DNA from: a virus
DNA length: 44,366 nucleotides
Direction: 5' to 3' (one strand)
Virus record (IMG/VR): IMGVR_UViG_3300025909_000001
Span: 1-44,366 of that record
In this document: positions 460 through 20,881 of the stretch, piece after piece
How positions within the stretch are numbered: position 1 is the stretch's first letter
Layout of the letters: the number at the start of each line of letters is the position of its first letter
Notes under the pieces: model-generated
What the model saw: only the letters and a program-made list of their open reading frames with translations
Database searches by the model: none
Told to the model about the DNA's origin: nothing
Program-made: the position numbers and the translations under genes

Positions 460-1311
460 ATGCGCTACGATCAACTTTTCACGAAACTGTTTTGCCAGCC
501 GCTCCTGATCGAACCTGGATATCGCGTGGGCCTGGAGCTCGCGCTCGTCTCGATGATGCAGGGGCGGCCCGTCGAGCCGCCGCAAATGCGCAAAGTCGAT
601 GAAGATCGGCAAATGGCGCGAAGCGACCAGCTCCTGGAGATCCGCGGCGACACGGCGATCATTCACATCGACGGCGCGATCGATAAGAACCTCTCCTGGA
701 TGGATCGGCTGTGTTTTGATGCCACGGACCTGCGCGACGTGGATAAGGCGCTCGCTCGCGTGGCGAGCGACCGGTCGATTGCGAATGTGCTGATCGCTCT
801 CGATTCGCCGGGCGGGAGTTTCCCCGGCGTTCCGGAGACGGCCGGCCGCGTGGCCGCGCTTTCGAGTGCCGGCAAGAATACGATCGCGTTTTGCAACGAC
901 ATGGCGTGCAGCGCGGCCTATTGGATCGCGGCGCAGTGCGACCAGGTCTTTGCGCCGGCCAGTGCCAGCGTGGGATCCATCGGCGTCTATCTGGCCATTA
1001 TCGACCAGTCCAGGCGTCTGGAGGAAATGGGCCTGAACGTCCAGGAGCTGAAAAGTGGCGACCTCAAAACTGCCGGAGCACCTTGGAAGCCGCTTACCGA
1101 ATCCGAGCGCGACCACCTCCAGGAGCGCGTGGACCACATCGGAGCGATGTTTCGCGCGGCCGTGACCAGCAAACGCGACGTGCCGGACGATGCGATGGAG
1201 GGGCAAAGTTTCATCGGCGACACGCCTGGTGAAGACTTCCGGAGCGCGCTCACGGCCGGACTCATCGACGCGATCGTGCCGACGATGGAGGACGCTCTGG
1301 ACGAGTTCTAG
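460..1311 (+). CDS. Prohead protease, peptidase family S49 (SppA/lambda gpC type)
   Basis: The 283-residue protein has the S49 core: DSPGG at residues 115-119, the putative nucleophile Ser151 in ACSAAYW, and the putative general base Lys203 in SGDLKTAG. The 52-residue spacing of the dyad fits the short, single-domain phage form. In lambda-type heads this enzyme matures the procapsid by cutting scaffold, portal and sometimes capsid termini. It lies between portal and scaffold/capsid, the conserved order. The ATG is 3 bp after the portal stop, with a weak AAGAAG upstream. Family assignment is strong; its substrates here are inferred. Confidence 0.9.
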   Translation: MRYDQLFTKLFCQPLLIEPGYRVGLELALVSMMQGRPVEPPQMRKVDEDRQMARSDQLLEIRGDTAIIHIDGAIDKNLSWMDRLCFDATDLRDVDKALARVASDRSIANVLIALDSPGGSFPGVPETAGRVAALSSAGKNTIAFCNDMACSAAYWIAAQCDQVFAPASASVGSIGVYLAIIDQSRRLEEMGLNVQELKSGDLKTAGAPWKPLTESERDHLQERVDHIGAMFRAAVTSKRDVPDDAMEGQSFIGDTPGEDFRSALTAGLIDAIVPTMEDALDEF

Positions 1312-1337: not shown

Positions 1338-1913
1338 ATGAGTCCGTACTCCCGCCTCTTCACCCGCGCCCAGGCTTTCGGTTTCTTTCTCGCTCCGGAG
1401 GGCGCTGGCGGCGGTGGCGGCGGCGGTGGCACGCTGAAGGAAAAGCTCACCACGGCCCAGGCAAAGGTCACTGAGCTCGAAGGCAAGATCTCGGACCTCG
1501 AAGGCGATAAGGAATCGCTGGAGGGCGACGTGAGCACGCACCAGGCGACGATCAAGCGTCTCGAGTCCGAAAAAACCAAGCTCTCCAAGGAGCTGAACGC
1601 TGAGAAGGAAAAGGTGACGACCCTGGAGGGCGAAAAGACGCAGCTCACGAAGGACCTGGCCGCGGAAAAGGCAGAGGTCACCAAACTCAAAGGAGAGGCC
1701 AAGGATGCCGACGAGCTGGCTGGGGAAAAGGCAGCGGCCAATGGCCATCCGCCCACTCCGACCGATGCGGCCAAGACCGGCGGGAAAGCCAAGGACGGCG
1801 CCGCCCTCAATGCCGAGTACGAAAAGCTGAAGGGCCGGGAGCGCACCGCATTTTTCCGCGAACACGAGAAGGCCCTCATGGCCTACGCGAAGGAACTCGA
1901 AAAGGCCGGCTGA
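1338..1913 (+). CDS. Putative scaffolding protein (long coiled coil)
   Basis: The 191-residue product has a run of eight Gly near residues 25-32, then about 110 residues of heptad-rich Lys/Glu/Leu sequence that should form a long coiled coil, a Pro/Gly linker and a basic-acidic helical tail. Its position between protease and major capsid gene, and its composition, fit a head scaffold. No specific family is recognised. There is no Shine-Dalgarno site; TTGACA begins at 1316, 22 nt before the ATG, the recurrent start-site box of this genome. The Gly run is encoded by a GGC/GGT simple repeat around 1405-1430. Confidence 0.6.
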   Translation: MSPYSRLFTRAQAFGFFLAPEGAGGGGGGGGTLKEKLTTAQAKVTELEGKISDLEGDKESLEGDVSTHQATIKRLESEKTKLSKELNAEKEKVTTLEGEKTQLTKDLAAEKAEVTKLKGEAKDADELAGEKAAANGHPPTPTDAAKTGGKAKDGAALNAEYEKLKGRERTAFFREHEKALMAYAKELEKAG

Positions 1914-1963: not shown

Positions 1964-3037
1964 ATGAAACTCTTCCGACTCGCCGTTCTCGCGATCCTCG
2001 CTCTTTTGTTCGCCGTCTTCGCCACACAAACGCCGCTCGCCCAATCCAATCCGGCGAGTGCGCTCGTGGCGGCGGCGGTTATTGCCTGGGGCGTCTCGCT
2101 CGCGTTGAACGACGTTCGCTCGCCCCTCTGCCGCGCGGTCACGGTTCCCGATGGCCTGAAGCTCGATCGGATCCTGAACACGGCGCTGGTCGCCTTGAAG
2201 CGCCGGCTGCTCCCGATCATGGCGTTCAGCACGGTCTTCCGCGATGTGATGCTGCAGGGCACCGATATCGTCCAGGTGCCGTTCGTGCCGCTGGACCAGA
2301 CGGCCTCGCTCGATTTCGACTATGACATCGGCTACGAATCCGGCGACGGCACGCTGGAAACCCGTCCGGTGCAGATCAACCGGCGCAAGTATCAGCCGCT
2401 GGCGATCACCGGCCAGCAACTCGCCCGGCAGCCGATCCTCGAGCTCGAGAAGATCATGGTCGCGAAGGCGAACCAGCTCGCCGAGGACATCATCAACGAT
2501 ATTTTCTCGGTGGTCACCCTCGCGAACTTTGGGGCGGCCGTGTTCACGGGTGCTTCGAGCGGGTTCGACAGCGACGATATCATCACGATCCGGAAGGCGC
2601 TCGAAAACGCGATGTGGCCGGTCAACGGACGCTCGCTGATCCTGAACACGGATTACGATGCGGCGCTGCTCACCGATAGCGCGGTGAAGGCCGCGTATGC
2701 CTTTGGTGGCAGCGAAGCGATCCGCGAGGGCAAGGTGCCAAAGATCCTCGGCCTCGACTACTACAGCGCGCCGATTCTGCCAGGCAACGCGGAGAACCTG
2801 GTCGGCATCGCCTCTCTACCGTTTGCGATTCTGATTGGCTTCGCGCCGATCGAACCGCCGCCCGGCGCCCGCAAAGTGATGGTCGATTATCGGACGGTGT
2901 CCGACGACAACGGTCTCACGCTCGAGTATCGGGAATTCGGCGACGCCAAGGGCGACACCGATTACCGGATCATCGAGTGCAACTATGGCTTCGCGAAGGG
3001 CGACGCCGCGCAGCTCAAGCGCCTGACCTCCGCGTAA
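1964..3037 (+). CDS. Major capsid protein with an N-terminal signal-peptide-like segment
   Basis: A 357-residue protein in the capsid position after protease and scaffold. The body (about residue 65 onward) is alpha/beta and reads like an HK97-fold coat protein: an extended acidic segment, a long helix near 155-175 and a beta-rich C-terminus. Residues 1-27 look like a Sec signal peptide (MKLFR, a Leu/Ala/Val core, then PLAQS), followed by a second hydrophobic stretch near 30-48. The only alternative start seen, TTG at 2105, has no ribosome site, so I keep the ATG at 1964, which also lacks one. The hydrophobic leader is unusual for a capsid protein and may be removed in maturation. Capsid assignment is by position and length; the fold is inferred. 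Confidence 0.75.
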   Translation: MKLFRLAVLAILALLFAVFATQTPLAQSNPASALVAAAVIAWGVSLALNDVRSPLCRAVTVPDGLKLDRILNTALVALKRRLLPIMAFSTVFRDVMLQGTDIVQVPFVPLDQTASLDFDYDIGYESGDGTLETRPVQINRRKYQPLAITGQQLARQPILELEKIMVAKANQLAEDIINDIFSVVTLANFGAAVFTGASSGFDSDDIITIRKALENAMWPVNGRSLILNTDYDAALLTDSAVKAAYAFGGSEAIREGKVPKILGLDYYSAPILPGNAENLVGIASLPFAILIGFAPIEPPPGARKVMVDYRTVSDDNGLTLEYREFGDAKGDTDYRIIECNYGFAKGDAAQLKRLTSA

Positions 3038-3041
3038 TCCC

Positions 3042-3350
3042 ATGCGCCGCGCGATCACCATTGGCATCCGGCACGGAAAGGATCTCCCTGAGATCATGAC
3101 CGGCCCGGACATGCCGCTCAAAGAGCACACCGCCGGTTTCAAGAAACTGCGCGAGACTCGGTCCCATCCGGACTTCCAGCGCGTGGAGATCTGGCACTCC
3201 GATAGCGGCCTGGTGCGCAAAGCCCGTTTTCTGACGCCTGACGGCGCGGTGGCCGCGGAAGCAAAGGAAGCCGCGGAGAAGGCGCAGACCGCCGCCGCAC
3301 AACCCAAGCCGAAGCCCGCCAAGCCTAAAAAGGAAAAGCCGGCCAAATAA
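3042..3350 (+). CDS. Small hypothetical head-module protein, Lys/Pro/Ala-rich tail
   Basis: Product of 102 residues. The first 70 residues are mixed alpha/beta with no family I recognise. The last 30 form a disordered, basic Ala/Lys/Pro tail that could bind nucleic acid or a capsid surface. It starts 5 bp after the capsid gene and precedes the head-fibre-like gene, so a head role is likely from context only. Confidence 0.6.
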   Translation: MRRAITIGIRHGKDLPEIMTGPDMPLKEHTAGFKKLRETRSHPDFQRVEIWHSDSGLVRKARFLTPDGAVAAEAKEAAEKAQTAAAQPKPKPAKPKKEKPAK

Positions 3351-3382
3351 ACTTTCGCGACCGTTCCGCAGCAAAAACCGTT

Positions 3383-3913
3383 ATGAAACCCAAAATCCCA
3401 ATCATTCTCGCCCTTCTCGCCTCCGGTCTTGTTTGCCTCGCCGGTACCAAGGTCGTCAATTCACACCTCGGCTTCCAAATCGGCTCCGCGGCCACCGAGC
3501 TTGTTGGTTTCTGGGGAGCGACGCCTGTCGTCCAGCCCACGTCGGCCAACCAGGCTGCGTTGACGGATTCCACCGGCGGTTCGGCCAGCAATACGACACT
3601 GGCGGCCGTAACTGCGCCCTCGGCGATCACGGACAGCACGGGCGGCAGCGCGGGGACCACGCTGGCGGCAATCACCACCTTTACGCCTTCCGTGGCCTGG
3701 AACGGATCGAGCGTGTATCCGAGCGCGGCCGATGCGACTGCGATCGCGGCCGCGATCACCTCGGAGAAGAATTCTTTGGCCAGTCTGGCCGCACGCCAGG
3801 CGGAGGACCGCGCGGCGATCGTTGCTCTGACGGATGCGACTGCGAAGGAAACGAAACTCCTGAACGCGATCCGGAGCGCCCTCGTCGCCGCCGGCCTGAT
3901 CAAAGGCTCGTAA
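3383..3913 (+). CDS. Head-fibre/decoration-like protein with signal peptide
   Basis: The 176-residue product starts with a hydrophobic leader (MKPKIPIILALLASGLVCLA) and then carries two copies of a DSTGGSA...TLAA repeat (about residues 53-95). It ends in a helix LLNAIRSALVAAGLI. The DSTGG repeats plus the terminal xLxAAGLI helix recall phage head-fibre proteins (Phage_fiber_2 type), which sit on the capsid outside and trimerise. It follows the capsid gene, as expected for a decoration protein. No Shine-Dalgarno site precedes the ATG. The signal-peptide-like N-terminus matches that of the capsid and tail-fibre genes. Confidence 0.6.
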   Translation: MKPKIPIILALLASGLVCLAGTKVVNSHLGFQIGSAATELVGFWGATPVVQPTSANQAALTDSTGGSASNTTLAAVTAPSAITDSTGGSAGTTLAAITTFTPSVAWNGSSVYPSAADATAIAAAITSEKNSLASLAARQAEDRAAIVALTDATAKETKLLNAIRSALVAAGLIKGS

Positions 3914-3931
3914 TCTTTTTCCGGTTGGTGG

Positions 3932-3965
3932 GAGAGCCGGTGGGTCCGCAGGGCCGCCGGCTCTC
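3932..3965 (+). other. Strong intergenic hairpin
   Basis: The arms 3932-3943 and 3954-3965 pair over 12 bp with one G-U, around a 10-nt loop (inner arms GAGAGCCGG and CCGGCTCTC). No T-run follows on either strand, so it is not a textbook terminator. It lies between the decoration and 181-residue genes and could stabilise the capsid-gene mRNA end or attenuate read-through. Confidence 0.55.
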
Positions 3966-3984
3966 TCCATTTCCAGACGTCCCT

Positions 3985-4530
3985 ATGGCCAAGAACCCCG
4001 AACTGATCCCGCACAAGCTCGTCGCGCAACTTTACGACCTGGACGCCCAGATCGAGGAGCTGAAGGACAGAAAGGCCGCGCTCGAGACCGAACTGATCGA
4101 CTGCGGAGAAGGTCATTACGTCGAGATCGAGGAGCGATCGCCGGGCGCGGGCAAGCGCAAGGCAGTCGTCGTTAAACCGTCCGCGCCGAAGCCGACCTAT
4201 ACTCTCTACCCCGATGCGCTGAAAAAGGCTTTCCTCGAGGCCAGGGAAGCAAAGAAGGCCACACCGGAGCTCCTCGAGGCATTCGCTGCCGATCAGGAAG
4301 CGAAGGCCCGCAAACTGGCGGGAATCAATTTCGGCATGATGTTTGACCGTGTGGTCGTCTATCGTCCGGCGCCGGCGTTCGCCGACCTGGTTACCAGGCT
4401 AATGGGCAAGGCGACGGCCACCCGCGATAAGTTGCTCCTCCTGTGCCAGGTCACGAAGAAGGCGGGAGCCGATCACGTGAAGCTTCTGGACAAGCCGAAG
4501 AAACAGGAGGCGGCAGACGAGGAGGAATAA
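3985..4530 (+). CDS. Hypothetical head-module protein (181 aa)
   Basis: No family recognised. Residues 10-40 form a short charged coiled coil, followed by a Lys/Pro linker and an alpha-helical C-terminal half ending in an acidic tail. The frame is open further upstream to 3433, but that stretch only shadows the preceding gene. The ATG at 3985 lies just after the 3932-3965 hairpin. The gene overlaps the next by TAATG. Confidence 0.65.
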   Translation: MAKNPELIPHKLVAQLYDLDAQIEELKDRKAALETELIDCGEGHYVEIEERSPGAGKRKAVVVKPSAPKPTYTLYPDALKKAFLEAREAKKATPELLEAFAADQEAKARKLAGINFGMMFDRVVVYRPAPAFADLVTRLMGKATATRDKLLLLCQVTKKAGADHVKLLDKPKKQEAADEEE

Positions 4531-4745
4531 TGGAAGGCGAGCCCAAAGCGTGGTGGGAAGAGCTGGCGGAGGGCTGGGAACGCATCGCGAATCGCCTCGA
4601 AGCCAAACCCAAGGGCGATGCCTCCCCGACCGCTACAACGAACAACACGGCGCGCGCCGTGGCCGTCACCGCCAAATCGCTTGCTGCCGGGCTCAGGGCA
4701 GCGGCTCGTCGCGCTGACACCGGGATAGGGAATGGCCAGACTTGA
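4530..4745 (+). CDS. Small hypothetical protein (71 aa)
   Basis: The ATG overlaps the previous stop as TAATG, with a good GGAGGA ribosome site inside the upstream gene, which decides this start over earlier in-frame codons. The product has a Trp-rich amphipathic N-terminus and an Ala/Arg-rich helix. Function unknown; context is head-tail joining. Confidence 0.6.
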   Translation: MEGEPKAWWEELAEGWERIANRLEAKPKGDASPTATTNNTARAVAVTAKSLAAGLRAAARRADTGIGNGQT

Positions 4746-5082
4746 TCAATTGCAGGGGCGGGGATTCCGCTTTCTCGTCAATAACTCCAACGCCCCGACG
4801 ATCTCGACGAAGGGCGGGACGGCGAAGCTGCTCAGCTCGCCGATCGGCATGGGCGCGACGATGCAGGAACACGGCTACTGGCCGAAATTTAACGGAGTGG
4901 TGGAATTGAGCCGGGCGGATTTCATCAAGCTCAGGATCAAGGACCGGACTGTGGTGGAGTACCGCAACAACGCGGCGAACAAGCTGAAGGTGGCCCTCAG
5001 AGTGATCGGGATCGAAGACAACGGCGCGAGCGCCACCGTGAAGCTGACCTTGGTGTGGGAGCCTGGCGGAAAGGAAGGGTAG
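4732..5082 (+). CDS. Hypothetical head-tail junction protein (116 aa)
   Basis: Overlaps the preceding gene by 14 bp, indicating coupled translation. The protein is predicted to be largely beta-stranded with no recognised domain. Between capsid/decoration and tail-completion genes, a head-closure or adaptor role is plausible but not shown by the sequence. Confidence 0.6.
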   Translation: MARLDQLQGRGFRFLVNNSNAPTISTKGGTAKLLSSPIGMGATMQEHGYWPKFNGVVELSRADFIKLRIKDRTVVEYRNNAANKLKVALRVIGIEDNGASATVKLTLVWEPGGKEG

Positions 5083-5087
5083 CGTTT

Positions 5088-5867
5088 ATGAGCGCGAGCT
5101 CGCTCGATATCGAGGGATGGGTGGCGATGTGCCAGGAGCTTTCCCGAATGTCGGGCAAAGACTTCCGCGAGATCATCGTCCCGGAGGTGGGGCAGCTCCT
5201 CCGGGCTTGTGTGCGCCGCATGGGGCCTCGGCGCCCAGACGGGGTGATCGCGAAGCGGGTGAGCGCGCATGGGTCGTATATCGAATTTGCGGACGGCACC
5301 AAGATCAACACCTGGAAAAAGAGCGACCATGCGGAGATGTTCCTCGATGACTCCACCTATCCGCTGTACGCGGCACGGTGGCCGAAGAAGAGCCGGATCC
5401 CGCCGATGGAGGCCGGGAAGAGCTGGCACGCGATGAACGACGCGAACAGGCACTGGTCGGGGCCCCGCTTCGCGAAGTTTGAAAAGCTGGATGCGGAGCG
5501 AGTGGCCGTAATGAATCGGCGATATCTGGAGGCCCTGAGTGCGCGTGGGCTCGCGCACAAGACCTGGAACGAGATCGCGGAGCTGCTCGGGCTCAGCCTC
5601 GATATCCCGAAGTGGGTGAAGAACGCGAAGGACCCGAAAGGGCGGCACTTCCAGGAAGCGCTCGCCACGACGATTATCGACCAGGCGGTGTGCATCGTGG
5701 AGTTTGTGAACTCCAATCCGCTGGTAGTGGGCAGGCTGAGAGGCGAGGAGGTCCTCGCCGGCGCGCTGCGCGATCGGGAGAAGGCTTTCATGATCGATAT
5801 GCAGAAAGGCGTCTTCGACGATGTGGTACGCCGGGCACAGCGATATCCGGGCGTGTTCGTGAATTGA
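5088..5867 (+). CDS. Hypothetical head-tail joining / minor tail protein (259 aa)
   Basis: No family recognised with confidence. The product is helical and basic, rich in Arg/Trp in its first half. The ATG at 5088 follows the prior stop by 5 bp. The stop TGA lies inside the TTGAC box that precedes the next gene. Position suggests a neck or tail-completion protein. Confidence 0.6.
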   Translation: MSASSLDIEGWVAMCQELSRMSGKDFREIIVPEVGQLLRACVRRMGPRRPDGVIAKRVSAHGSYIEFADGTKINTWKKSDHAEMFLDDSTYPLYAARWPKKSRIPPMEAGKSWHAMNDANRHWSGPRFAKFEKLDAERVAVMNRRYLEALSARGLAHKTWNEIAELLGLSLDIPKWVKNAKDPKGRHFQEALATTIIDQAVCIVEFVNSNPLVVGRLRGEEVLAGALRDREKAFMIDMQKGVFDDVVRRAQRYPGVFVN

Positions 5868-5882
5868 CGTCCCGCTGACGGT

Positions 5883-6353
5883 ATGCCCGCTCCCGATCTC
5901 GCCTCGCTCCTGGACCCGACGACACTCGTCGAGGCCGCGGTGAAGAAGCTTTTGACCAAGCCACCGAAGACGGTGGACGCGTTTGTCTCGAGAGAGAGCG
6001 GGACGCTGACGGCCGAGCGGGTGAACATCACTTTCACACTCGGGAAATGGAACGGGCGATGGTTCAAGGACCGCGGCGGGAAGTGGCGGCATTCGTGCTG
6101 GGAATACACTTTGCAGCTCGATATCTGGACGAAGCGCCTCGCGAAGGACAAAGGGCGCCATGCCTTCCTCCGCGGGAAGCTCCCGGCGCTGCTCACGGAC
6201 GCCGTGCTGGATCCCAAGTTTCTGGCCTGGCACACGCTCGCCTCGCTGAATGAACTGGGCGGATCGGAAAGCATCCAGGCGGGGGATGACATGGACACTT
6301 CGTTCCTGAAGTATGGCGGGCTGGTGACGGTCCGGAGCGATTCCTGGCCGTGA
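5883..6353 (+). CDS. Putative tail terminator / minor tail protein (156 aa)
   Basis: The 156-residue alpha/beta protein sits where lambda-type phages encode the tail terminator. Residues 100-155 (LLTDAVL, a WHTL helix, then a FLKYGGLVTVRSDSW strand) fit that fold loosely; the call is by synteny. No Shine-Dalgarno site; TTGAC starts at 5864, 19 nt before the ATG. Confidence 0.5.
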   Translation: MPAPDLASLLDPTTLVEAAVKKLLTKPPKTVDAFVSRESGTLTAERVNITFTLGKWNGRWFKDRGGKWRHSCWEYTLQLDIWTKRLAKDKGRHAFLRGKLPALLTDAVLDPKFLAWHTLASLNELGGSESIQAGDDMDTSFLKYGGLVTVRSDSWP

Positions 6354-6375
6354 TTGACAAGGCGGCGATGGCACT

Positions 6376-6861
6376 ATGCGCCCGCCACTCCGTCTCCTCT
6401 CGCTCGCCCTCGCTTGTGTCCTCGCGTTGCCGTTCGCCGGCCGCGCAGCCGACTACACCGTCACCGCGGCCAATGTCGTTCCGAGCGCGGATGCTCAGCT
6501 CGCGCGCGGCACGGCCGGGACCTCGATCACCGCGGGCATGGCTCTCGCCAAGGATTCGACCGGACTGCTCCAACCGTATGACTCCAACAGCGGCACGGCG
6601 CTCCTCCGCGTCTTTGTGGGGATCGCATGCGGCGGCGGTGCGACGGGCCAGCCGATCGTCTACTGCACCCAGGACCTGACGGGCTTCACGCCTGGTTTCA
6701 CGGTGGCGGCCGGTGCGATCGTGATTGGATCGGCGACGGCAGGACTGCTTTGCCCGGCCGCGGATCTCGCGACCGGGAACTATCTCACGATCGTCGGCGT
6801 GGGGATCGGTTCGAACAAAATCAAGTTTTCGACTTTGGCGGCGGGCGTGGCCACGCCGTAA
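6376..6861 (+). CDS. Decoration-like virion protein with signal peptide
   Basis: Product of 161 residues. Residues 1-26 form a signal peptide (basic MRPPLR, Leu/Ala core, AGRA-A end). The mature part is Gly/Ala/Thr-rich beta sequence with the pattern seen in phage cement or DUF2190-like decoration proteins: AGTSITAGMALAKDS, VGIACGGGATGQP and PAADLATGNYLTIVGVG. Such proteins coat the capsid or tail surface. TTGACA at 6354 is 22 nt before the ATG, with no Shine-Dalgarno site. The export signal on a virion protein is the oddity here. Confidence 0.6.
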   Translation: MRPPLRLLSLALACVLALPFAGRAADYTVTAANVVPSADAQLARGTAGTSITAGMALAKDSTGLLQPYDSNSGTALLRVFVGIACGGGATGQPIVYCTQDLTGFTPGFTVAAGAIVIGSATAGLLCPAADLATGNYLTIVGVGIGSNKIKFSTLAAGVATP

Positions 6862-6893
6862 CCGGAGAGCGTTGACACCCACGCGAGGCACCT

Positions 6894-7124
6894 ATGGCGA
6901 ACGCTCAACTCCAACAGACCTACGTGCGGCTGCAGCGGGAGATTGCCGATCACGACCGGCAGATCAAGGAGCTCACGGAAATGCGCGCCTCGAAGGCTGA
7001 GGCGCTCGAGCAACTGAAGGCGCACGCACCCACTCGGCCCGGCGAAGCGAAATCAGAGGCACCCAAGGCGCCGACGCCGACACCGCCCGCCGAAGCTAAA
7101 CCACCGGAGACACCCAAGAAGTAA
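6894..7124 (+). CDS. Small coiled-coil protein with Pro-rich tail (76 aa)
   Basis: Residues 5-42 form a charged coiled coil and 45-76 a Pro/Ala/Lys disordered tail, resembling a shortened version of the scaffold at 1338. TTGACA at 6872 is 22 nt before the ATG. It lies just before the tail tube candidate; role unknown. Confidence 0.6.
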   Translation: MANAQLQQTYVRLQREIADHDRQIKELTEMRASKAEALEQLKAHAPTRPGEAKSEAPKAPTPTPPAEAKPPETPKK

Positions 7125-7127
7125 GCC

Positions 7128-7508
7128 ATGAGCGATCCCGCAAAAACTTTTAACGACGGGGGAATCAAGTTCAACCGTCAGACGGTGAGCCTGAAGGACA
7201 CCGATGGAACGCAGACCGACTACGTGCTCAAGAAGGGGAACCTGAAGGCGGGCGTGAAAAAGGTGACGTCGGACAACCAAAACGGCGTCGAATACAAACA
7301 GGCCGGCATGGCCAAGATTCCGGAAGGAAAGTTCAGCCTGCAGTACATCAACCCGACCGACAAAGTGCCGGCGCAGATGCAGTACTTCACGGCCCAGGAT
7401 AGCGGCGGAAACACGCGCAACCTCGTTTTGTGGGAAGTGGACGATCAGTTCGGCGCCGGTGAGGAAGCCGTGATCGAGTGCGACGTCTCGGAGAAGCAGG
7501 CCCAGTAA
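7128..7508 (+). CDS. Putative major tail tube protein (126 aa)
   Basis: Small, soluble, predicted all-beta protein located immediately before the chaperone-position and tape-measure genes, where long-tailed phages encode the tube subunit. Length is at the short end for tube proteins. No sequence family is recognised, so this is a synteny call. The ATG is 3 bp after the previous stop. Confidence 0.5.
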   Translation: MSDPAKTFNDGGIKFNRQTVSLKDTDGTQTDYVLKKGNLKAGVKKVTSDNQNGVEYKQAGMAKIPEGKFSLQYINPTDKVPAQMQYFTAQDSGGNTRNLVLWEVDDQFGAGEEAVIECDVSEKQAQ

Positions 7509-7535
7509 GAGGGGCCCCGCGCCCCGATCGCGCGC

Positions 7536-8273
7536 ATGCTCCTTGATGATATCCCAGGGCTGAAGCGTGCGGTGGCCCGCGCGCGAGCGAAGGAGGCGAT
7601 GATTCGCGAAAGGGCGTATCTGCCTTGCTGCCTGCGCATTTCCGGGATCGACGTCCATCCGTTTACCCCGCGTCACTATCTTCTCCTGGACGCCGCGCGA
7701 TCGCCGCTGATCGGCTACCCGGGCGAGGTGCTCCCCGAGCACGTGGCGCAATTTCTGTGGATTATCTCGACGGCTTTCGTCCTGCCGTCGCACCAGATGC
7801 CTTTGAGGGAGGTGAAGAAGATCCGGGCGAAGTTTGGCGAGCGGGTGCGCCGCGTTCACTACCTTCCCGCTCGAAAACAGATCCGGGCGTATATTGACGA
7901 AGCGTGGTTTGATGCGCCGCCGGTCAACCACACAACCGAGGACGCTCCTCATGCCAGTTTCGCCGCGACGCTGGTCGAGCGGTTTTTGCCCCGACCGGTG
8001 GCGACGTTCGACTCGCGCGGCCAGCCAATCATTGGCGGCGGGACGTTGGACACGCCCTTCTCTCAACTCTTCCAGGTCCTGCGCTTGATGAATCGGCGCG
8101 CGGACCCGGATTGTTTCCTGAGCAACCCGCTGAGCGATCGCGTGGAGCGCGAGTGTGTCCGGCGGTATTTCAACCGGAAGAAGGCCCGGAAGGCGGCGCG
8201 GGCGGCGAAAGCAGCCGCGGCGAGAGAATCCCAGGCGTCTGGAAATCGACAAGCGGAGGGGGGGAAACCATGA
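7536..8273 (+). CDS. Putative tail assembly chaperone-position protein (245 aa)
   Basis: Lies between tube and tape measure, the place of tail assembly chaperones. The first 115 residues carry a HYLLLDAARSPLI segment and hydrophobic helices; the C-terminus is a basic Lys/Arg/Ala helix. The 3' end holds a G7-A3 run just before the tape-measure ATG; it may serve as part of the ribosome site. One copy of the genome's 16-bp near-palindrome lies at 8229-8244, inside the disordered C-terminus (coding SQASG). Confidence 0.5.
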   Translation: MLLDDIPGLKRAVARARAKEAMIRERAYLPCCLRISGIDVHPFTPRHYLLLDAARSPLIGYPGEVLPEHVAQFLWIISTAFVLPSHQMPLREVKKIRAKFGERVRRVHYLPARKQIRAYIDEAWFDAPPVNHTTEDAPHASFAATLVERFLPRPVATFDSRGQPIIGGGTLDTPFSQLFQVLRLMNRRADPDCFLSNPLSDRVERECVRRYFNRKKARKAARAAKAAAARESQASGNRQAEGGKP

Positions 8274-10309
8274 GCGGCCAAAACGCCATCATCGCCCGCA
8301 TGGGCATCGATCTGAACGGGCTGAAGGGCGACCTCACGTCCGCGGAGAAGCTGGCGGTGCGCGCCGCGAACCAAATGGCCTCCGAGCTGAACAGGGCCGC
8401 CAAGGGCGGCGGAGGTGGCGGCGGCAAGGGCCATGGGCACGGCGGCGGGGGTAATGCGCGCATCTTTGGCGATCCGATCAACGCGGCCACGGGCACGACG
8501 GGCAACGTGAGCAAGATCGGCATGCTTTCGCACCTCACGGGAGCAGCCGGCCCGGCGGCCGGCTTGCTCCTGGTCGCACAGACCATCAGCGGCATCGCGA
8601 AGGCGATGATGGAGCTCGAGGCCTCCACGAACGAGATCCGGAAGGTCCGCGGGAAGGGAACGCAGAGCTGGTCCGACAAGCTGCTTCCATTCAACCTGCA
8701 GCAGGGCGTGCAGGCCGGGGATGCGCAGGCGACTTCCGTGGAGGGCATGCGCGCCCAGAGCGACAAACTCGGCAAGGTAGCCTCCAAACCGCTGGAGCAC
8801 GGGTTCATGGCCTCGCTGGGCGCGATGATCGCGCCGGCGCTGGTCAATCCCATCGTCGACAAGCACGAGGAGGAGAAGCGCGGCGCCCTGGACGATCAGC
8901 TCAAGATCTCGCAGAAGATCGCCGAGGCCACGAAATACGAGGCCGAAGCGAAGGAAGAAGCGGTCCACCAAAGCGAGCGGCAGGGCGAGCTCGATCTCGC
9001 GCAGTTTGAACACACCCAGCGGATGGCCGCCATTGCCGATCGCCAGGCGAAGGGCGAGAAAGGGGAAGAGGGCGGCATCCTCGGGCCGGAGGCGGTCGCG
9101 CTGAAGAAGGCCGAGGTGGAAAGCTTCGAACGCGCGAAGGAGGCGATCAACCTCAAGCACGCCGCGATCGCGCGGGAAATCGCGATGCAGAACACGCTGA
9201 CCTTTCTGCGCGAGAAAGGGGATGACGAGGGCGTACAATCCGCCGAGGAGCGCGTGCGCGCCGCCCAGGCTGAAGTCGAGGCCGCGGCGGCATTGACGCA
9301 GGAGGCGCAAGATAAGGCGGCTGCAAATCTGAAATCCGCGCAGGCCGACCTGCTGCTTGCGACCCGGCACCGGGATGTGGTCCGCGCGGAACAGCAGTCA
9401 CAGATCTCGATCGCGAACATGCAAGTGAGCGCGGATGAGAAGCACCTGGCGGCGCTCGCAGCCGAAAGGAAAAATTTGGAGGAAGAGCGGGCGCACGCTG
9501 ACGCGGACCGGCAGAAGCAAATCGACGTCGCGCTGGCGAAGAATGACGAGAGCACCCGCGGCGCCAAGAGCACCCTCACGAGCGACGCCTTTGGCGAATC
9601 CAATGCGCGGATCGATGCGGGGCAGGGCGTCGGGCAGAGTGAAGCGCAGCGCGCAGCCCTCGGCCACATCGGCGAGGAGGAGGACCGCCTGAAGGAGATG
9701 AATCGGGACAGGGAGCACTATTCGGATCAAGACCGAGCTCAGCAGGCGGCGAAGATCCAGGGGATGAGGCGCGCGTATGACGACGTTGATCACAGCATTC
9801 GCATGGGCAATGAGGCCGCGAAGGCGCAGACGGGCGAGATGGCGATGCAACTCGATCACCAGACGACGCTCGCGGACGCGGTCAGAGAACAATTCGAATA
9901 CGCGCAGAAAATCGCGGAGGCGCAGCGCAACGGGAACGATGCTCTCGTGGCGCAGCTCAAAACGCAAAAGGATCTGGCGCTCGCGTTATCGGCGCAGCGG
10001 GCTGATGAAGCGAAACGGGAGAAGCGTGGACTGACACTTGGAGACCTGGCCAAAGATGGCGGCACGTACGGACACCGCGCCCGCCAGGTCAACCGGTTGG
10101 AACAGCGGGCAGACCGGCTGCGAGGGCATGGGCGGATCGCGGAGAGCGACGCCCTGCATAACCGCGCGGACGCGGCGCGCCGCGGTCTCGAGCGGTCGGG
10201 CGTCCTGAAGCCGAGCGAGGCGAACAAGGACATGACGGCGGCTCTCGACAAGTCCGAGGTGCTGAAGGCGATCAAGACGAACACGGAGAACCTGGGCAAG
10301 AACCGATGA
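8270..10309 (+). CDS. Tape measure protein
   Basis: The 679-residue protein begins at the ATG overlapping the previous stop (ATGA) behind GGAGGGGG. It has a Gly/His-rich linker at about 44-62, a hydrophobic segment near 88-112 (Gly/Ala/Leu/Val-rich), then roughly 400 residues of Ala/Glu/Lys/Arg coiled coil. That is the make-up of tape measure proteins, which set tail length and help DNA entry. At about 0.15 nm per residue it would set a tail of about 100 nm, so a siphovirus is likely. Confidence 0.85.
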   Translation: MSGQNAIIARMGIDLNGLKGDLTSAEKLAVRAANQMASELNRAAKGGGGGGGKGHGHGGGGNARIFGDPINAATGTTGNVSKIGMLSHLTGAAGPAAGLLLVAQTISGIAKAMMELEASTNEIRKVRGKGTQSWSDKLLPFNLQQGVQAGDAQATSVEGMRAQSDKLGKVASKPLEHGFMASLGAMIAPALVNPIVDKHEEEKRGALDDQLKISQKIAEATKYEAEAKEEAVHQSERQGELDLAQFEHTQRMAAIADRQAKGEKGEEGGILGPEAVALKKAEVESFERAKEAINLKHAAIAREIAMQNTLTFLREKGDDEGVQSAEERVRAAQAEVEAAAALTQEAQDKAAANLKSAQADLLLATRHRDVVRAEQQSQISIANMQVSADEKHLAALAAERKNLEEERAHADADRQKQIDVALAKNDESTRGAKSTLTSDAFGESNARIDAGQGVGQSEAQRAALGHIGEEEDRLKEMNRDREHYSDQDRAQQAAKIQGMRRAYDDVDHSIRMGNEAAKAQTGEMAMQLDHQTTLADAVREQFEYAQKIAEAQRNGNDALVAQLKTQKDLALALSAQRADEAKREKRGLTLGDLAKDGGTYGHRARQVNRLEQRADRLRGHGRIAESDALHNRADAARRGLERSGVLKPSEANKDMTAALDKSEVLKAIKTNTENLGKNR

Positions 10310-10911
10310 GCGATCCCATAGGCACACTCTACGACGGCGACCACGAAAAGCCGTTCATCTGCGGCCCCATCGTGACCTGGGTGGACGAGGAGACGCGGGC
10401 AAAGATGACGAAGATCCCGTATCGTGTCCGCGCGCCATTCTACAAACCGCTTCCCCGGGGTGCCCGCAATCCGCTTGCACCGCAAGCTTCGCTCATCGAG
10501 CAGCCGAAGCCGAAAATCGTCGTGGGCGATCTCTACGAATACGATTTGATTTTCGCGACGGTACCGCAGCGGCCTGACGAGCCGCTGCCTTACGTGATGA
10601 ATTATCAGATTTTCGTGCGGGCGAACTTTACCGATCCTCTGCAGCTCATGGAGCTCGCGATCCCGCTGACCGCCACGGTGAGTTGGACCTACTACAACAC
10701 GACAACTCCGGAGAAAATCAAACTGCGTGAGGCCTTTCGCGTGGTCGAACTCGCGGGAAGGTTCTACGGCATCGGGACTCAGCCGAAGCCTACGGATCCG
10801 ACATGGCTGGCCGAAAACGAAACCCTCACTCGCAAGTGGGAGGGCGGAAACATCTGGGAGAAAAAGTCGATCATCGTGCCGGCTCCGGGCAAAGCGAAAG
10901 CGATCACCTGA
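10306..10911 (+). CDS. Hypothetical tail-tip protein (201 aa)
   Basis: Overlaps the tape measure by ATGA. Predicted mostly beta, no recognised domain. Position after the tape measure points to a distal tail or tail-tip component. Confidence 0.65.
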   Translation: MSDPIGTLYDGDHEKPFICGPIVTWVDEETRAKMTKIPYRVRAPFYKPLPRGARNPLAPQASLIEQPKPKIVVGDLYEYDLIFATVPQRPDEPLPYVMNYQIFVRANFTDPLQLMELAIPLTATVSWTYYNTTTPEKIKLREAFRVVELAGRFYGIGTQPKPTDPTWLAENETLTRKWEGGNIWEKKSIIVPAPGKAKAIT

Positions 10912-10912
10912 T

Positions 10913-11218
10913 ATGGCCGCCGATTATTCCATGCGGCTTAAGGCGGGCGAAAGGTCGCCCTCGATGCAAGAGGCAGAAACGGTCAACAAGCAGGTCCTTG
11001 AACCGATCGAGGCGATGGTGAAGATGTCGTTCATTCCGGCCGACGCGGTGGTGCTGACCATCAATGGGGCGAAGGCGACTATGGATTTCACGAAGCTGAA
11101 GAAATCGATTCTGAGCGGTGACGGCGGCAAGAATATGATCTCTGGCGTTTACGTGATGGTGAACGGGACGCGCTACCTGACGAACATCCTGACAGACGGA
11201 ACCCTCAACCCAGCATGA
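10913..11218 (+). CDS. Hypothetical tail protein (101 aa)
   Basis: The ATG at 10913 follows the previous stop by 1 bp; the frame is open upstream but only as a shadow. Small alpha/beta protein of unknown family in the tail-tip operon, overlapping the next gene by ATGA. Confidence 0.6.
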   Translation: MAADYSMRLKAGERSPSMQEAETVNKQVLEPIEAMVKMSFIPADAVVLTINGAKATMDFTKLKKSILSGDGGKNMISGVYVMVNGTRYLTNILTDGTLNPA

Positions 11219-11973
11219 GTGCCCCGGTGATCATCGGGTTTGCGAACTACTCGGGCGATGCGCTCGATAGCTCGAAATTCAGCGGGCAATTCACGCCGTT
11301 CCTCCGGGACAAGAGTCTCGACGCGGCGGCGTTTCCCGTGGGTGTGGCACTCGATGTCGTGGATAAGTGGTTTCACCGCGCCCGGATTTGGAGTCTCTCG
11401 ACGGATGCCAAGGTTTCTGGAGGCGGCGGCAGTGTGGCCTTCGTTCAGGGCGTCCAGGCTCCGAGCGCGTGCGATGCCGCCGGTACTCCGATGGCGAGCG
11501 AGAAGGATCACGCGGCCGTAGGGGCGGCAGTGCTGTGCAACGCGGTGCCCGATATTGTGCCGGCGTCTGGCTACACGATCAGCGGCTTGCTCGCGATATC
11601 GCTCTTCCGCTCAACGGGCTACGCTGTGCCAGCGATCTACTACAACGGGACCGACTACTTCCCGGCCATCGGGATCGGCGCCAATCTCTCGCTCGATAAC
11701 GGGACAAATGCCGGGCAGCTCGAGTTGAGCTCGGATCCCGCCTCGTTCTCTCCCGCGACGGGCAGTATCGACGCTACGATCGATGGGGTGACCGTGCCTC
11801 TCTACTACAAGTTCACGAGCAACGGCACGGGCGCGATGACCCTCACGCATTTCGACCTGACGATCGCCTCCTACTGGCCGTACAACGCAAAGGACGGAAC
11901 CCCGATTTACGACGTCACGAACGGGCTCCAGCTTCAGGACCCGCGGGTGGATCTGCTGCCGAAGGGCGATTGA
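11215..11973 (+). CDS. Hypothetical tail-tip protein (252 aa)
   Basis: Beta-rich, Gly/Ser/Ala-rich protein with no recognised family. It is coupled to the upstream gene by ATGA, and its stop TGA sits inside the TTGAC box of the next gene. Likely part of the distal tail by context. Confidence 0.6.
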   Translation: MSAPVIIGFANYSGDALDSSKFSGQFTPFLRDKSLDAAAFPVGVALDVVDKWFHRARIWSLSTDAKVSGGGGSVAFVQGVQAPSACDAAGTPMASEKDHAAVGAAVLCNAVPDIVPASGYTISGLLAISLFRSTGYAVPAIYYNGTDYFPAIGIGANLSLDNGTNAGQLELSSDPASFSPATGSIDATIDGVTVPLYYKFTSNGTGAMTLTHFDLTIASYWPYNAKDGTPIYDVTNGLQLQDPRVDLLPKGD

Positions 11974-11988
11974 CACGCACCGGCGAGC

Positions 11989-13389
11989 GTGAGTCTCGCT
12001 TCGCTCGATTTTGTCGTCAATTGCCAGGACACGACCAGGAAAGGACGCCTGGTGTCTTTTGACGCCCAGGGCGTAGACGATTCCGGGCAGCTCCTTATGC
12101 GCCATGAAACCGTCACGGTGAACCTGCGGCCCGTGAAGCCCGGTATCTCGACAGACTGGGTGGATCTCGACGTCGAAGCGGCCCGCGCGGCGAATGGCGT
12201 GCGCCTGGGGGTGGGGGAATTCGACAAAGCGCCGGCGACGGGGTCCTGGCCGCTGGCTCTGAATGGCGATAGCACCGGCCTGACCGCGCTCGATGGATCG
12301 ATCACCGCCGATGCACTGAAGGCGTTGCTGATTGCAAATCCGGCCGTGGTGGCCGCCGGGGGGATCTCGGCCGTGACTTTGACGGGCAGGACCTACCGCA
12401 TCTACTACACGACGACGGGGGCGAAGCCGGATTTCACGACGACCGACAATGATCTTTTGCCGCTCTCGGCCGTTTCGATCTCGCGGGCGGTGGTGGGCGA
12501 TGACACGCACAAGGAAGTCGTGGCGATCACGGTCAAGCGGCGGCCGTATGCGTACTGTGACTCGTGGACGGCCGCGCCGGCGGCGAACGTGAGTTGCGCC
12601 ATCACGATCGCTGGGGCGGCCGTGGATCCGAAGGCCGATTGCGTGCAGACGATCACGCTGACACCTGGCTGCTATGACGGGCGCTACTCGATCCCCGTGG
12701 TGCTGCCAAACACGGGAACTGGCGACGGGGGTACGAACATCACGCAAGCGATCACGTTTTTTGCGACGGATGACGCTGACGCGATGCTCGCCCGGCTCCA
12801 GACGCATCCGGAGGTGGTCAAGGATGGGACGAGCGGCGTGTCGGTGACGGGCGTGGCCGGAGGACCCTACACAGTGACGTTCATCAATCACTTGGGAAGC
12901 CTGGTGATCGCGGAGATGGTGCCGGCCAATATCGACCTGGCGGCGCCGCGAACGCTGACGGGCGACCTCGATCTCAACCAGGATGGCATGGCCGAATTTT
13001 TCGACACGGTCACCGGCGACACGGCGAGCCTGGTCGTGGAGCTGGAGATTCAATTCCCGGGCGGGAGCCCGGCGAAGCCGTTCCAGGACGCGTGGACCTT
13101 TGGGCGGGATCTCTTCGACAACGAGACGCTGCGGCCGCGGACGGATGCGACTTTTCCGACGAACGGGGAGATTGTCCGTTATCTGCGGGACATCACGGAT
13201 TTTGCCGGGCTTTCGGCGATCGATACGGCGGGAGGCAGCGTGCAGTGCGTGGTGGTGAGCATCGCCGGTGCACCTCGAATGTGGGAACTTGTCGCCGGCA
13301 CGGACGCCACCGACACGGCCAGCGGAATCCAACGGCCGGATGACTTCGACGCGGATACGAATGCCTACGTGTGGAAATCGGTTTTCTGA
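11989..13389 (+). CDS. Large tail-tip/baseplate protein (466 aa), GTG start
   Basis: No recognised family. The protein is beta-rich with repeated Ig-like-looking segments and a C-terminal stretch (SGIQRPDDF...AYVWKS) typical of tail proteins that bind a fibre. The start is GTG at 11989: no Shine-Dalgarno site is present, but TTGACA lies 19 nt upstream at 11970, matching the other TTGAC-led genes. It is followed by the tail fibre gene. Confidence 0.6.
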   Translation: MSLASLDFVVNCQDTTRKGRLVSFDAQGVDDSGQLLMRHETVTVNLRPVKPGISTDWVDLDVEAARAANGVRLGVGEFDKAPATGSWPLALNGDSTGLTALDGSITADALKALLIANPAVVAAGGISAVTLTGRTYRIYYTTTGAKPDFTTTDNDLLPLSAVSISRAVVGDDTHKEVVAITVKRRPYAYCDSWTAAPAANVSCAITIAGAAVDPKADCVQTITLTPGCYDGRYSIPVVLPNTGTGDGGTNITQAITFFATDDADAMLARLQTHPEVVKDGTSGVSVTGVAGGPYTVTFINHLGSLVIAEMVPANIDLAAPRTLTGDLDLNQDGMAEFFDTVTGDTASLVVELEIQFPGGSPAKPFQDAWTFGRDLFDNETLRPRTDATFPTNGEIVRYLRDITDFAGLSAIDTAGGSVQCVVVSIAGAPRMWELVAGTDATDTASGIQRPDDFDADTNAYVWKSVF

Positions 13390-13401
13390 CCTCTTTTTCT
13401 T

Positions 13402-14565
13402 ATGAAAACTCTACGCCTCTTTTTCCTCTCGCTTTACCTGGTGCTGCACTCCTGCACGCCGATTTTTGCGCAAACCCAGGCAGTCACGATCAACGTCGGC
13501 ACGAAGCGGATTCAACAGGCGTCGATCAAGCTGCCAAGCAGCGGCCTGTTCACCGTTGAGAGCGGGGGCACGCTTTCAATCGCCGGCGTGATCAGTGGAA
13601 CGCCTAGCGGGGGCACGCTAAATCTCGGCGGCTTGACCCTATCGCTCGGGACGCCGGCAGCCGGCACTCTTACCAACTGCACCGGCCTGCCGATCTCAAC
13701 CGGCGTATCCGGTCTTGGCACTGCAGTGGCCACCTTCCTGGCGACTCCTAGTTCGGCAAACCTGGCCGCTGCGATCACCAATGAGACGGGAAGTGGCGCC
13801 TTGGTTTTTGCGACGTCACCAACGCTCGTCACTCCGATCCTTGGCACGCCCACGAGCGGAACTCTCACAAACTGCACCGGGCTCCCGATCGGGAGTGGTG
13901 TTTCGGGGCTGGGGTCGGGCGTCGGCACTTTTCTAGCGACGCCGACATCGGCGAATCTTGCCGCCGCGCTCACCGATGAGACGGGGACCGGTGCCGCCGT
14001 ATTCGCCAATACGCCGACGCTCGTTACTCCAAACATCGGCGTAGCCACTGGAACAACTCTTACCGTGACCAACGCGGGCGACCAGCTCAACTTCAATTAC
14101 GACTCCTCCCATCGTTACAAGGTGGCCTGCTCACAATTTGGAGTTCTCCAATTCAACGGGCTCGACGCCGGCCTTGTGCAATTCCAGGTCGCCGGCACGA
14201 CTTTCTTTTCGGTCGGAAACAACGCGGCCGTTTATTCGGGCCAGTTCGTCGGGTTCCACTGCAACAATACGAACTATGTCGCGGGCCGTTCGCGATTCGG
14301 TGTCTCTGGAGCAGACGCGGCCGCTGCGCCTGGACTGAGTGACGGCGGCGCTGCTGACACGATTGGGTTTTGCATCGGCGGAACTGATTACGGAAAGATG
14401 ACCACATCGCTTCTCAATCTGAGCGTCGGCGTCGCCGTGCCGACGCACACGCCATCCAGCGCGAGCGACACCGGCGTCGCTGGAACGATCACCTGGGACG
14501 CGTCCTATCTCTACGTGTGTACCGCAACGAACACGTGGAAGCGCGTCGCGATCGCGACCTGGTAA
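13402..14565 (+). CDS. Tail fibre protein with signal peptide and internal repeats
   Basis: The 387-residue product opens with a Sec-type signal peptide (about residues 1-24, ending IFAQ). Residues 60-215 hold two clear copies of a unit containing GTLTNCTGLPI, SGVSGLG, FLATPSSANLAAA and PTLVTP, a widespread tail-fibre repeat that forms trimeric beta-structures. The C-terminal 170 residues are Gly/Ala/Thr-rich and probably bind the receptor or tip protein. The DNA repeats at 13660-13830 and 13845-14030 make this a likely recombination site. A fibre with an export signal is unusual. No Shine-Dalgarno site. Confidence 0.8.
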   Translation: MKTLRLFFLSLYLVLHSCTPIFAQTQAVTINVGTKRIQQASIKLPSSGLFTVESGGTLSIAGVISGTPSGGTLNLGGLTLSLGTPAAGTLTNCTGLPISTGVSGLGTAVATFLATPSSANLAAAITNETGSGALVFATSPTLVTPILGTPTSGTLTNCTGLPIGSGVSGLGSGVGTFLATPTSANLAAALTDETGTGAAVFANTPTLVTPNIGVATGTTLTVTNAGDQLNFNYDSSHRYKVACSQFGVLQFNGLDAGLVQFQVAGTTFFSVGNNAAVYSGQFVGFHCNNTNYVAGRSRFGVSGADAAAAPGLSDGGAADTIGFCIGGTDYGKMTTSLLNLSVGVAVPTHTPSSASDTGVAGTITWDASYLYVCTATNTWKRVAIATW

Positions 14566-14569
14566 CTCT

Positions 14570-15004
14570 ATGATACGCATCAAACCCGGAGCTCGCCTCC
14601 GCCTCATCCAATCGACCGACGCCACGCCGGTCCCGATCGCCAACGGAATTGGCGGCATCCTCAACAATCCGGACGTCGAGCAATACTCGACGTTTCCGGC
14701 AAGTCCATTCGACGCGAACAAGAACTTCATCGCGCCGCAAGCCGGATTCTTCCGCTTCAACACCGCGGCCGAAATCCAAACCGGCGGCCTGTTGCTCGTC
14801 TCGATCGCAGACGCACGACGTGGGCAGCAATATGACAGCGCGGTCCAGGGCGCCCAGAACCTCTCCGGACGTCTCGACGTCACGCTCTATTTGGAAAAGG
14901 GCGACGCCGTGCAGCGGTATATCTCGCTCTATGACGGGACCGACACGACCGTCTTTCCACGTGCCAACAGCAATTTCTACGAGATCGAGTATCTCGGGCT
15001 GTAA
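14570..15004 (+). CDS. Tail-fibre tip protein, C1q/TNF-like jelly-roll candidate
   Basis: The 144-residue product has the strand order and motifs of small C1q-like receptor-binding domains: FIAPQAGFFRFNTA near the start, then a LYLEKGDAVQRYISLYDG strand pair, and a final YEIEYLGL. Such domains trimerise at fibre tips. It follows the fibre gene by 4 bp and ends the virion operon before the terminator. The fold is inferred from pattern only. Confidence 0.55.
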   Translation: MIRIKPGARLRLIQSTDATPVPIANGIGGILNNPDVEQYSTFPASPFDANKNFIAPQAGFFRFNTAAEIQTGGLLLVSIADARRGQQYDSAVQGAQNLSGRLDVTLYLEKGDAVQRYISLYDGTDTTVFPRANSNFYEIEYLGL

Positions 15005-15024
15005 GGCGATCTAAACTGTCGAAT

Positions 15025-15062
15025 ACGCCGACGCCGGCCTCCCGGCGTCGGCGTTTTCTTTT
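15025..15062 (+). terminator. Intrinsic terminator after the virion genes
   Basis: Perfect 13-bp GC stem (15025-15037 with 15042-15054), 4-nt loop CCTC, followed by TTTTCTTTT. This is the clearest plus-strand terminator in the window and separates virion from lysis genes. Confidence 0.95.
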
Positions 15063-15094
15063 GAACGGCGAGTTGATTGACATGCCGCAGGGGC

Positions 15095-15403
15095 GTGACT
15101 CCGATCCTCGATACTGTTCAAGAATTTGCCGATCGCCATCCGTTTGCGACCGGGTCGATCGGGACAGGGAGCGGCGTGGCCGCGGCGCTACTGAGGGAGA
15201 TCCATTCGGTGGCCGGCCTGGCTGCGGACCTGGGCATCATCTTCGGTTGCGTGGTGTCGTTCCTTACGGGGATCATTCTGAGCGGCCGCCTGGTCGTGGC
15301 GATCGCGGCAATGCTGCAACGGCGCCGGCGCAATATGCTGCAGCGCCGCCGGCATGCGAAGGACACGGGGCCGGAAGAGGACATCGACGAGCTGGTGCCG
15401 TGA
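15095..15403 (+). CDS. Putative holin (102 aa, two membrane segments), GTG start
   Basis: Two hydrophobic segments (about residues 24-42 and 46-70) separated by a short turn, followed by a strongly basic tail with repeated QRRR. This is the shape of a class II holin, which makes holes in the inner membrane to release endolysin. I take GTG at 15095 as start: TTGACA lies 18 nt upstream (15077), as in the other TTGAC-led genes, rather than using the TTG inside that box. First gene of the lysis module after the terminator. Confidence 0.6.
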   Translation: MTPILDTVQEFADRHPFATGSIGTGSGVAAALLREIHSVAGLAADLGIIFGCVVSFLTGIILSGRLVVAIAAMLQRRRRNMLQRRRHAKDTGPEEDIDELVP

Positions 15404-16309: not shown

Positions 16310-16541
16310 CCTGGTGCTGGCCGGCTGCGCGGGCATTCCGCTGCCGGAAGTGTCCACGCTGCCGACCGACGTCCAGGAGGAGATCCGGGCCAACGATCCG
16401 CGCCTGGAGGCCCTCTACGAGAAATATCATCCCGTGCCGGGGCCTGGACTGCATCTCCGCAGCGAGGTGCGCAAAGTGACCGACCAGCGGAGGAAAGAAG
16501 TCGCGGGTGAGTTTTGGGTATTCGTTTCCGGGTCCTGGTAG
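16278..16541 (+). CDS. Small lipoprotein embedded in the upstream 3' end (o-spanin candidate)
   Basis: Starts at TTG 16278 inside the preceding gene and gives MSRLLPALASSLVLAGC, a perfect lipobox with Cys17. The 70-residue mature part is charged, with a Glu/Arg helix and a Pro/Gly turn. A tiny lipoprotein overlapping a membrane-protein gene in the lysis cassette recalls Rz/Rz1 spanins, but the partner has a PG-binding domain instead of a long periplasmic coiled coil. An upstream in-frame ATG (16236) would spoil the signal peptide. Confidence 0.6.
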   Translation: MSRLLPALASSLVLAGCAGIPLPEVSTLPTDVQEEIRANDPRLEALYEKYHPVPGPGLHLRSEVRKVTDQRRKEVAGEFWVFVSGSW

Positions 16542-20878: not shown

Positions 20879-20881
20879 CGG

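Follow-up and report, generated by a model that had tools for sequence, protein, structure and literature searches.

Tailed-phage particles are held to assemble wholly in the cytoplasm, away from the export machinery. Why, then, would several virion proteins of a tailed phage, the major capsid protein (MCP) among them, begin with what look like membrane-targeting leaders? The question is raised by IMG/VR virus record IMGVR_UViG_3300025909_000001 (positions 1 to 44,366; this whole stretch of 44,366 nucleotides is called the window), in which an earlier note had pointed to signal-peptide-like starts on four open reading frames (ORFs). The window carries genes for terminase, portal, head protease and an HK97-type MCP and is the genome of a tailed phage. 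The genome is complete, with 44,239 bp and a direct terminal repeat of 127 bp (positions 1-127, repeated at 44240-44366). Judged by the MCP, its closest cultured phage is Verrucomicrobia phage P8625, at 26-27% identity. Here we report that the leaders of the four ORFs are almost certainly genuine and translated, judging by random controls and by what homologues retain, and that they probably direct their proteins to the membrane.

Four leaders at the starts of predicted virion proteins

Leaders were sought with a rule that combines a basic n-region, ten uncharged residues of high hydropathy (the core, scored as a 10-residue Kyte-Doolittle mean) and small residues near a possible cleavage site. 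The rule picks up all ten of a set of textbook E. coli signal peptides, taken as a positive control, and flags at their own ATG the four plus-strand ORFs that the earlier note had singled out: the MCP at 1964, a head-fibre-like protein at 3383, a cement-like protein at 6376 and a tail fibre at 13402. Core means of these leaders range from 2.66 to 3.31, and each has the basic n-region and the small residues that the rule demands. The features are listed below; other phage genomes and loci are designated by handles such as G010 and L110.

1964..3037, plus strand: MCP with a hydrophobic N-terminal leader; its HK97 fold is indicated by matches to phrog_283 major head protein (E=2e-20) and, by profile, to the solved MCPs 8zdh (E=2e-8) and 8e16 (E=8e-8)
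1964..2134, plus strand: predicted MCP leader, residues 1-57, with two hydrophobic stretches; the homologues of P8625 and of 79 viral loci start at around residue 57
3383..3913, plus strand: head-fibre-like protein with a Sec-type signal peptide, found by the leader rule; the leader ends where the G067 homologue begins (window T22 against G067 T2)
3383..3442, plus strand: predicted signal peptide of the 3383 protein, MKPKIPIILALLASGLVCLA, found by the leader rule
6376..6861, plus strand: cement- or decoration-like protein with a signal peptide; the leader is kept in both homologues, and there are marginal decorator and cement matches
6376..6447, plus strand: predicted signal peptide of the 6376 protein, MRPPLRLLSLALACVLALPFAGRA; codon position 2 is the best conserved between phages, and A24 is invariant
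13402..14565, plus strand: tail fibre with a signal peptide; matches phrog_17312 tail protein (E=5e-11), and leader-bearing fibres occupy the matching locus in G011 (MQTRLIQLVLFFVLALSAGA) and in G060, in the latter directly behind the same upstream tail gene
13402..13470, plus strand: predicted signal peptide of the 13402 tail fibre, MKTLRLFFLSLYLVLHSCTPIFA, found by the leader rule

At a core score of >=2.6 the rule is satisfied by one of 5,036 open ATGs in Markov-random sequence of the same composition and by none of 160 on the minus strand; at >=2.4 it finds nothing among 486 genes around leaderless relatives of the window MCP (loci of at least 9 kb). With random controls near zero and leaders kept by homologues, chance or wrong starts were rejected as the origin of the leaders. 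The remaining plus-strand matches are lipoprotein-type leaders at 15423 and 16278, one short ORF at 23336 and scattered weak internal starts. No leader was found at the own starts of the protease, scaffold, tail tube and tape measure, which bears out the earlier observation that scaffold and tape measure lack one; the proteins marked by leaders are outer proteins of the virion. A Shine-Dalgarno sequence was seen in just 2 of 24 window genes examined and ahead of none of the four leader starts; because such sites are nearly absent genome-wide, their absence here is uninformative. The codon-position G+C content of the leaders resembles that of coding sequence.

Features expected of export by Sec and signal peptidase I (a basic n-region, an uncharged h-region and small residues at -3 and -1) are present in the 3383, 6376 and 13402 proteins and in homologues. 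The earlier description of a Sec-type leader on all four proteins needs a correction for the MCP, whose leader of about 57 residues has two hydrophobic stretches and seems more anchor-like. The earlier note had also seen no well-supported alternative start in any of the four; the window MCP has weak internal starts at GTG 2066 and TTG 2105, and the leaders of the other three proteins contain no further in-frame ATG.

A cement-like family keeps leader character while its leader sequence diverges

Both homologues of the 6376 protein, in G010 (locus L110) and G011 (L111), are leader-bearing. After the leader, the window protein is 67% and 60% identical to them, respectively, and within the leader 38% and 29%. 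The three leaders nevertheless share one common plan: a conserved (A/S/T)-D-Y marks the predicted start of the mature protein, and the residue ahead of it (-1) is Ala in each. In all three pairwise comparisons, conservation is highest at codon position 2, the position that determines hydrophobicity. Because the sequence has diverged and position 2 is the best conserved, the leader of this family appears to be translated and selected for its character rather than its sequence, a pattern that extends over three phages. A profile of the three proteins has as its best match the decorator protein D of YSD1 (YSD1_16), which is marginal (E=0.017); for the G011 member there is a match to Phage_cement_2 (PF09956), likewise marginal and below the cut-off (E=0.025, 15.4 bits against a cut-off of 24).

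Leaders on two families of major capsid protein

In the window MCP leader, 17-residue hydrophobic peaks begin at residues 3 and 32, with K2/R5 before them and R52/R57 after. MCP leaders contain one or two transmembrane-length stretches and no decisive cleavage site, and that of the window would seem to resemble a membrane anchor more than a classic signal peptide that is cleaved off.

The MCPs of P8625, G011 and other phages begin at the core, without a leader. Further relatives were found by a scan with a terminase alignment. The MCPs of G063, G067, G069 and G071, 40-47% identical to that of the window, carry a hydrophobic leader of ~45-65 residues, which precedes a conserved L-[KR]-L-D-[KR] core; in G063 there is no start codon from a GTG at residue 40, inside the second hydrophobic stretch, to the core. 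The MCP of G060 belongs to an unrelated family and is 75% identical over its length to a leaderless G007 protein. Its leader adds 53 hydrophobic residues, up to precisely the Met with which the G007 protein starts, its upstream ATG lies 35 nucleotides after the scaffold gene, and the codon-position G+C content of the leader is coding-like. On these comparisons, an MCP leader can be recognized in six phages (the window, G063, G067, G069, G071 and G060), and because the unrelated MCP of G060 also bears one, leaders appear to have arisen on two MCP families inside one terminase lineage.

A further scan found 80 loci of the window MCP family. One, G063, is leader-bearing, and 72 clearly start 8-9 residues ahead of the core; the remaining seven belong to a group in which the four members checked also start 8-9 residues ahead of the core. 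In a tree, the leader-bearing MCPs stand apart from leaderless close relatives, with modest support and with P8625 on a very long, unsure branch. The earlier note had held that homologues consistently starting after the hydrophobic segment would count against the leaders. This has come about by half: 79 of the 80 do so, but several other relatives keep the leader, and G063 has no start near the core.

The first 30 MCP codons of G069 and G071 agree almost completely at the DNA level (29 of 30), while 139 of 293 core codons differ. The conserved stretch (L219:14151-14240 and L221:12155-12244) extends about 30 nucleotides upstream and resembles a recombining or RNA-constrained module.

Fibre leaders inside and outside the lineage

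In G009 the MCP is leaderless and the fibre-like protein behind it bears a leader. Nine of 69 homologues in its fibre-domain family have a convincing leader directly ahead of the domain, where leaderless members start (17 matched the rule, and eight were dropped as low-scoring or inside the domain); the junction reads ...FSAFA/ISGVLKQSTA in G009 and MEGFLKQSTA in the leaderless L114. Other genes carry leaders in 12 of 116 cases on contigs with a leader-bearing fibre, as against 23 of 1055 on contigs without one (Fisher 6e-5). In the unrelated phage L063/G012 the MCP lacks a leader, the head gene after it bears one, and the tail region contains six leader-bearing genes in succession. The repeat of the 13402 protein is common to hundreds of phages, and among ~60 tail-fibre ORFs inspected a convincing leader was found in L063 only; the closest relatives of the 3383 repeat have a leader in none of ten cases. 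The suggestion that the leaders are lineage-specific therefore fits those of the MCP, which are restricted to few relatives, but not those of fibres, which also occur outside the lineage.

Genes annotated as structural in the cultured phages P8625, B124-14, 11b and P12024L bear no leader. The Bacteroidota phages B124-14, 11b and P12024L were considered as precedents and set aside, having just lipoprotein- or lysis-type leaders or none, and phage records searched with three fibre or head proteins that bear leaders yielded no cultured relative of use. Separately, the minor head protein gene behind the MCP at L213/G065 20538-21032 has a weak leader-like extension, MNILRNLFGPLAFAGIFHGA, which ends exactly where its G066 homologue (L214/G066 14867-15307) starts (coordinates refer to whole contigs).

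Considered together, the leaders precede proteins that are complete and otherwise normal, at just the point where leaderless homologues start, and look as if they had been grafted on.

A proposed model of membrane-associated assembly

The best overall explanation, to which we would give roughly an even chance, is that genuine membrane-targeting leaders have been added before ordinary virion proteins. Under this explanation, the head fibre, cement and tail fibre would enter the host Sec pathway, be trimmed by host signal peptidase I to the N-terminus of their leaderless homologues, be kept in or beyond the inner membrane, and attach to nearly finished particles at lysis. In other phages, cement and fibres can bind late to finished heads or tails, as several decoration and fibre proteins do, so late attachment of exported cement and fibres would be coherent. 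That these accessory proteins join late and from the far side of the membrane is nonetheless a tentative proposal, which may well prove wrong.

For the MCP, export of the whole protein is ruled out in the model because DNA packaging is cytoplasmic. Given the K2/R5 and R52/R57 flanks and the positive-inside rule, the leader would form a hairpin with both of its ends, and the MCP itself, in the cytoplasm. It would tether the MCP to the cytoplasmic face of the inner membrane, where heads would form, and would afterwards be removed or buried. Among the functions offered for the leaders in the earlier note, that of a membrane-assembly tag still suits the MCP best; we consider such tethering almost an even bet. 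The full picture, in which HK97-fold MCPs are tethered at the membrane, Sec-exported cement and fibres coat the particles at lysis, and leaders have been repeatedly gained and lost on two MCP and several fibre families, is doubtful as a whole.

Several observations weigh against membrane-associated assembly. Most MCP relatives at a similar distance (79 of 80) are without a leader, which is therefore dispensable to the fold. Internal starts exist in the MCPs of the window (TTG 2105), G060 (a retained ATG), G067 (ATG) and G071 (GTG), and would permit an MCP made mostly without the leader, the leader-bearing form being minor. That the cement-like and head-fibre-like proteins belong to the virion is deduced from position and marginal matches, and the AlphaFold models of the 6376 protein and the MCP are of low confidence (predicted local distance difference test scores, pLDDT, of 39 and 40). 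A need for disulfides or oxidation was also considered as a reason for export and rejected: it would lead one to expect cysteine enrichment, which is not seen in leader-bearing proteins (0.78 against 0.98 per 100 residues, p=0.44).

Alternative explanations

Exported fibre and cement could instead act at the surface of the infected cell, for instance by occupying receptors so as to prevent superinfection or re-adsorption to debris, with the virion built from a leaderless form made at an internal start. Because receptors at the surface are what fibres bind, a fibre exported to it could act in this way, and some MCPs do have internal starts (G060 ATG, G071 GTG, window TTG). The virion would need a leaderless form, yet the leaders of the head fibre, cement and tail fibre contain no further in-frame ATG from which it could be made, and a receptor role is not obvious for a cement protein or an MCP. 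We regard this alternative as unlikely.

It is less likely again that the leaders are pro-peptides cut during maturation by the phage head protease, as in T4 gp23 or the HK97 delta domain. Two neighbouring features bear on this idea.

460..1311, plus strand: S49-type head maturation protease; matches phrog_53 (E=3e-59) and Pfam Peptidase_S49 (PF01343, E=7e-24)
1338..1913, plus strand: scaffold-like coiled-coil protein without a leader, assigned by position and coiled-coil composition

N-terminal trimming of MCPs by phage proteases is well established, and the protease gene lies just upstream of the window MCP; its S49 domain beside portal and MCP is as in a lambda gpC-like head maturation protease. 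The earlier note had taken this gene for an SppA-family protease that might remove the leaders, a role that the comparison does not sustain, since a related protease also adjoins the leaderless MCPs of G004/G009, G006, G010, G011, G065 and G066. Because a related protease is found as often with leaderless as with leader-bearing MCPs, the S49 protease is not specialized for leader removal, although it might still trim the MCP. The T4 gp23 and HK97 pieces are likewise extra N-terminal parts of an MCP, of about 50-100 residues, but they are hydrophilic or helical and scaffold-like, and an HK97-type delta domain goes with the lack of a separate scaffold gene, whereas the window piece is hydrophobic and membrane-type and the scaffold gene is separate. 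Tail fibres and cement would, moreover, be unusual substrates.

Very unlikely, in our judgement, is an effect of the leader on synthesis rather than location, by which it would slow or localize the translation of abundant late proteins, delay premature assembly and be inert later. The near-identity of the G069 and G071 leader codons, beside cores that differ, could reflect RNA constraint, but recombination is another explanation; leader DNA is not conserved among the cement-like proteins, whose position-2 pattern indicates hydrophobicity of the peptide. Least credible of all are wrong start codons, with the hydrophobic stretches being untranslated in-frame sequence: most MCP homologues do begin after the leader position and none of the four starts has a Shine-Dalgarno sequence, but homologues keep leaders with position-2 conservation, some MCPs are without a usable later start, the random expectation is 1 in 5,036, and tight spacing to the upstream gene suits the leader ATG.

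Other features of the genome

The terminase, at 38579-40852, matches annotated terminases, and bacterial genome contigs scanned with the window MCP and terminase gave zero matches. The portal gene seems to span the junction of the terminal repeat, which would make the record a complete, circularly read genome. A minus-strand gene at 18967-20403 has a weak tyrosine recombinase match (PF00589, E=0.24), which might mean a temperate phage. Two lipoprotein-type leaders in the presumed lysis region, at 15423-15911 (..LLCAGC) and 16278-16541 (..LVLAGC), are ordinary and probably spanin-like. Between the head protease and scaffold genes of G009 (also in G004) lies a small leader-bearing ORF with Thr/Pro/Ala repeats (L017:11486-11761).

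The hexamer TTGACA occurs ten times on the plus strand of the window (1316, 1914, 6354, 6872, 11970, 15077, 15404, 16572, 41196 and 42715) and never on the minus strand, although its total count is not above chance. It often lies right where the preceding gene has its stop codon (TGATTGACA), 19-22 nucleotides ahead of the next start. The same strand bias, found here in a genome nearly without Shine-Dalgarno sites, is seen in relatives (plus/minus counts of 9/0 in G067, 10/1 in G071 and 9/0 in G010).

Relation to known systems and implications

To our knowledge, known cement proteins are cytoplasmic, unlike the signal-peptide-bearing 6376 family, whose likeness to Phage_cement_2 and the YSD1_16 decorator D lies in the marginal profile matches given above. 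Leader-bearing virion proteins placed in the membrane are already known from filamentous phages (Inoviridae), in which all structural proteins are membrane-anchored (PMC3185693); pVIII and pIII have Sec-type leaders and are in the inner membrane before assembly. These phages differ in being not tailed, in having no HK97-fold shell, procapsid or terminase packaging, and in being extruded without lysis. Their mode of assembly, with filamentous-phage morphogenesis genes and no terminase, does not fit the window, where terminase, portal and head protease are present. Membrane-associated head assembly is known too, since T4 heads form on the inner membrane (PMC3185693). There, however, contact is made via a connector chaperone protein, with no hydrophobic leader on each MCP subunit. 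In P8625, by contrast, the MCP begins at the core, and according to the paper describing the genome none of the proteins has a signal peptide (PMC4642752). In the literature searched, which was partial, most subscription journals lying outside it, we found no account of such leaders on virion proteins of tailed phages; as far as our knowledge and that literature go, the combination of leaders on an HK97-type MCP and on cement proteins is undescribed.

Homologue pairs that are 47-75% identical with and without a leader (G060/G007, and the window against L251-type MCPs) offer a clean comparison. There is also a risk for annotation, as leader-bearing phage genes may be mistaken for host genes of secreted proteins or be assigned starts that lie too late. 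If the reading of the leaders as membrane-targeting is true, part of a tailed virion crosses, or is held at, the inner membrane. This would bear on where and how heads form, on how fibres avoid binding too early, and on the host factors that such a phage would need, among them SecA, SecY, YidC and signal peptidase I.

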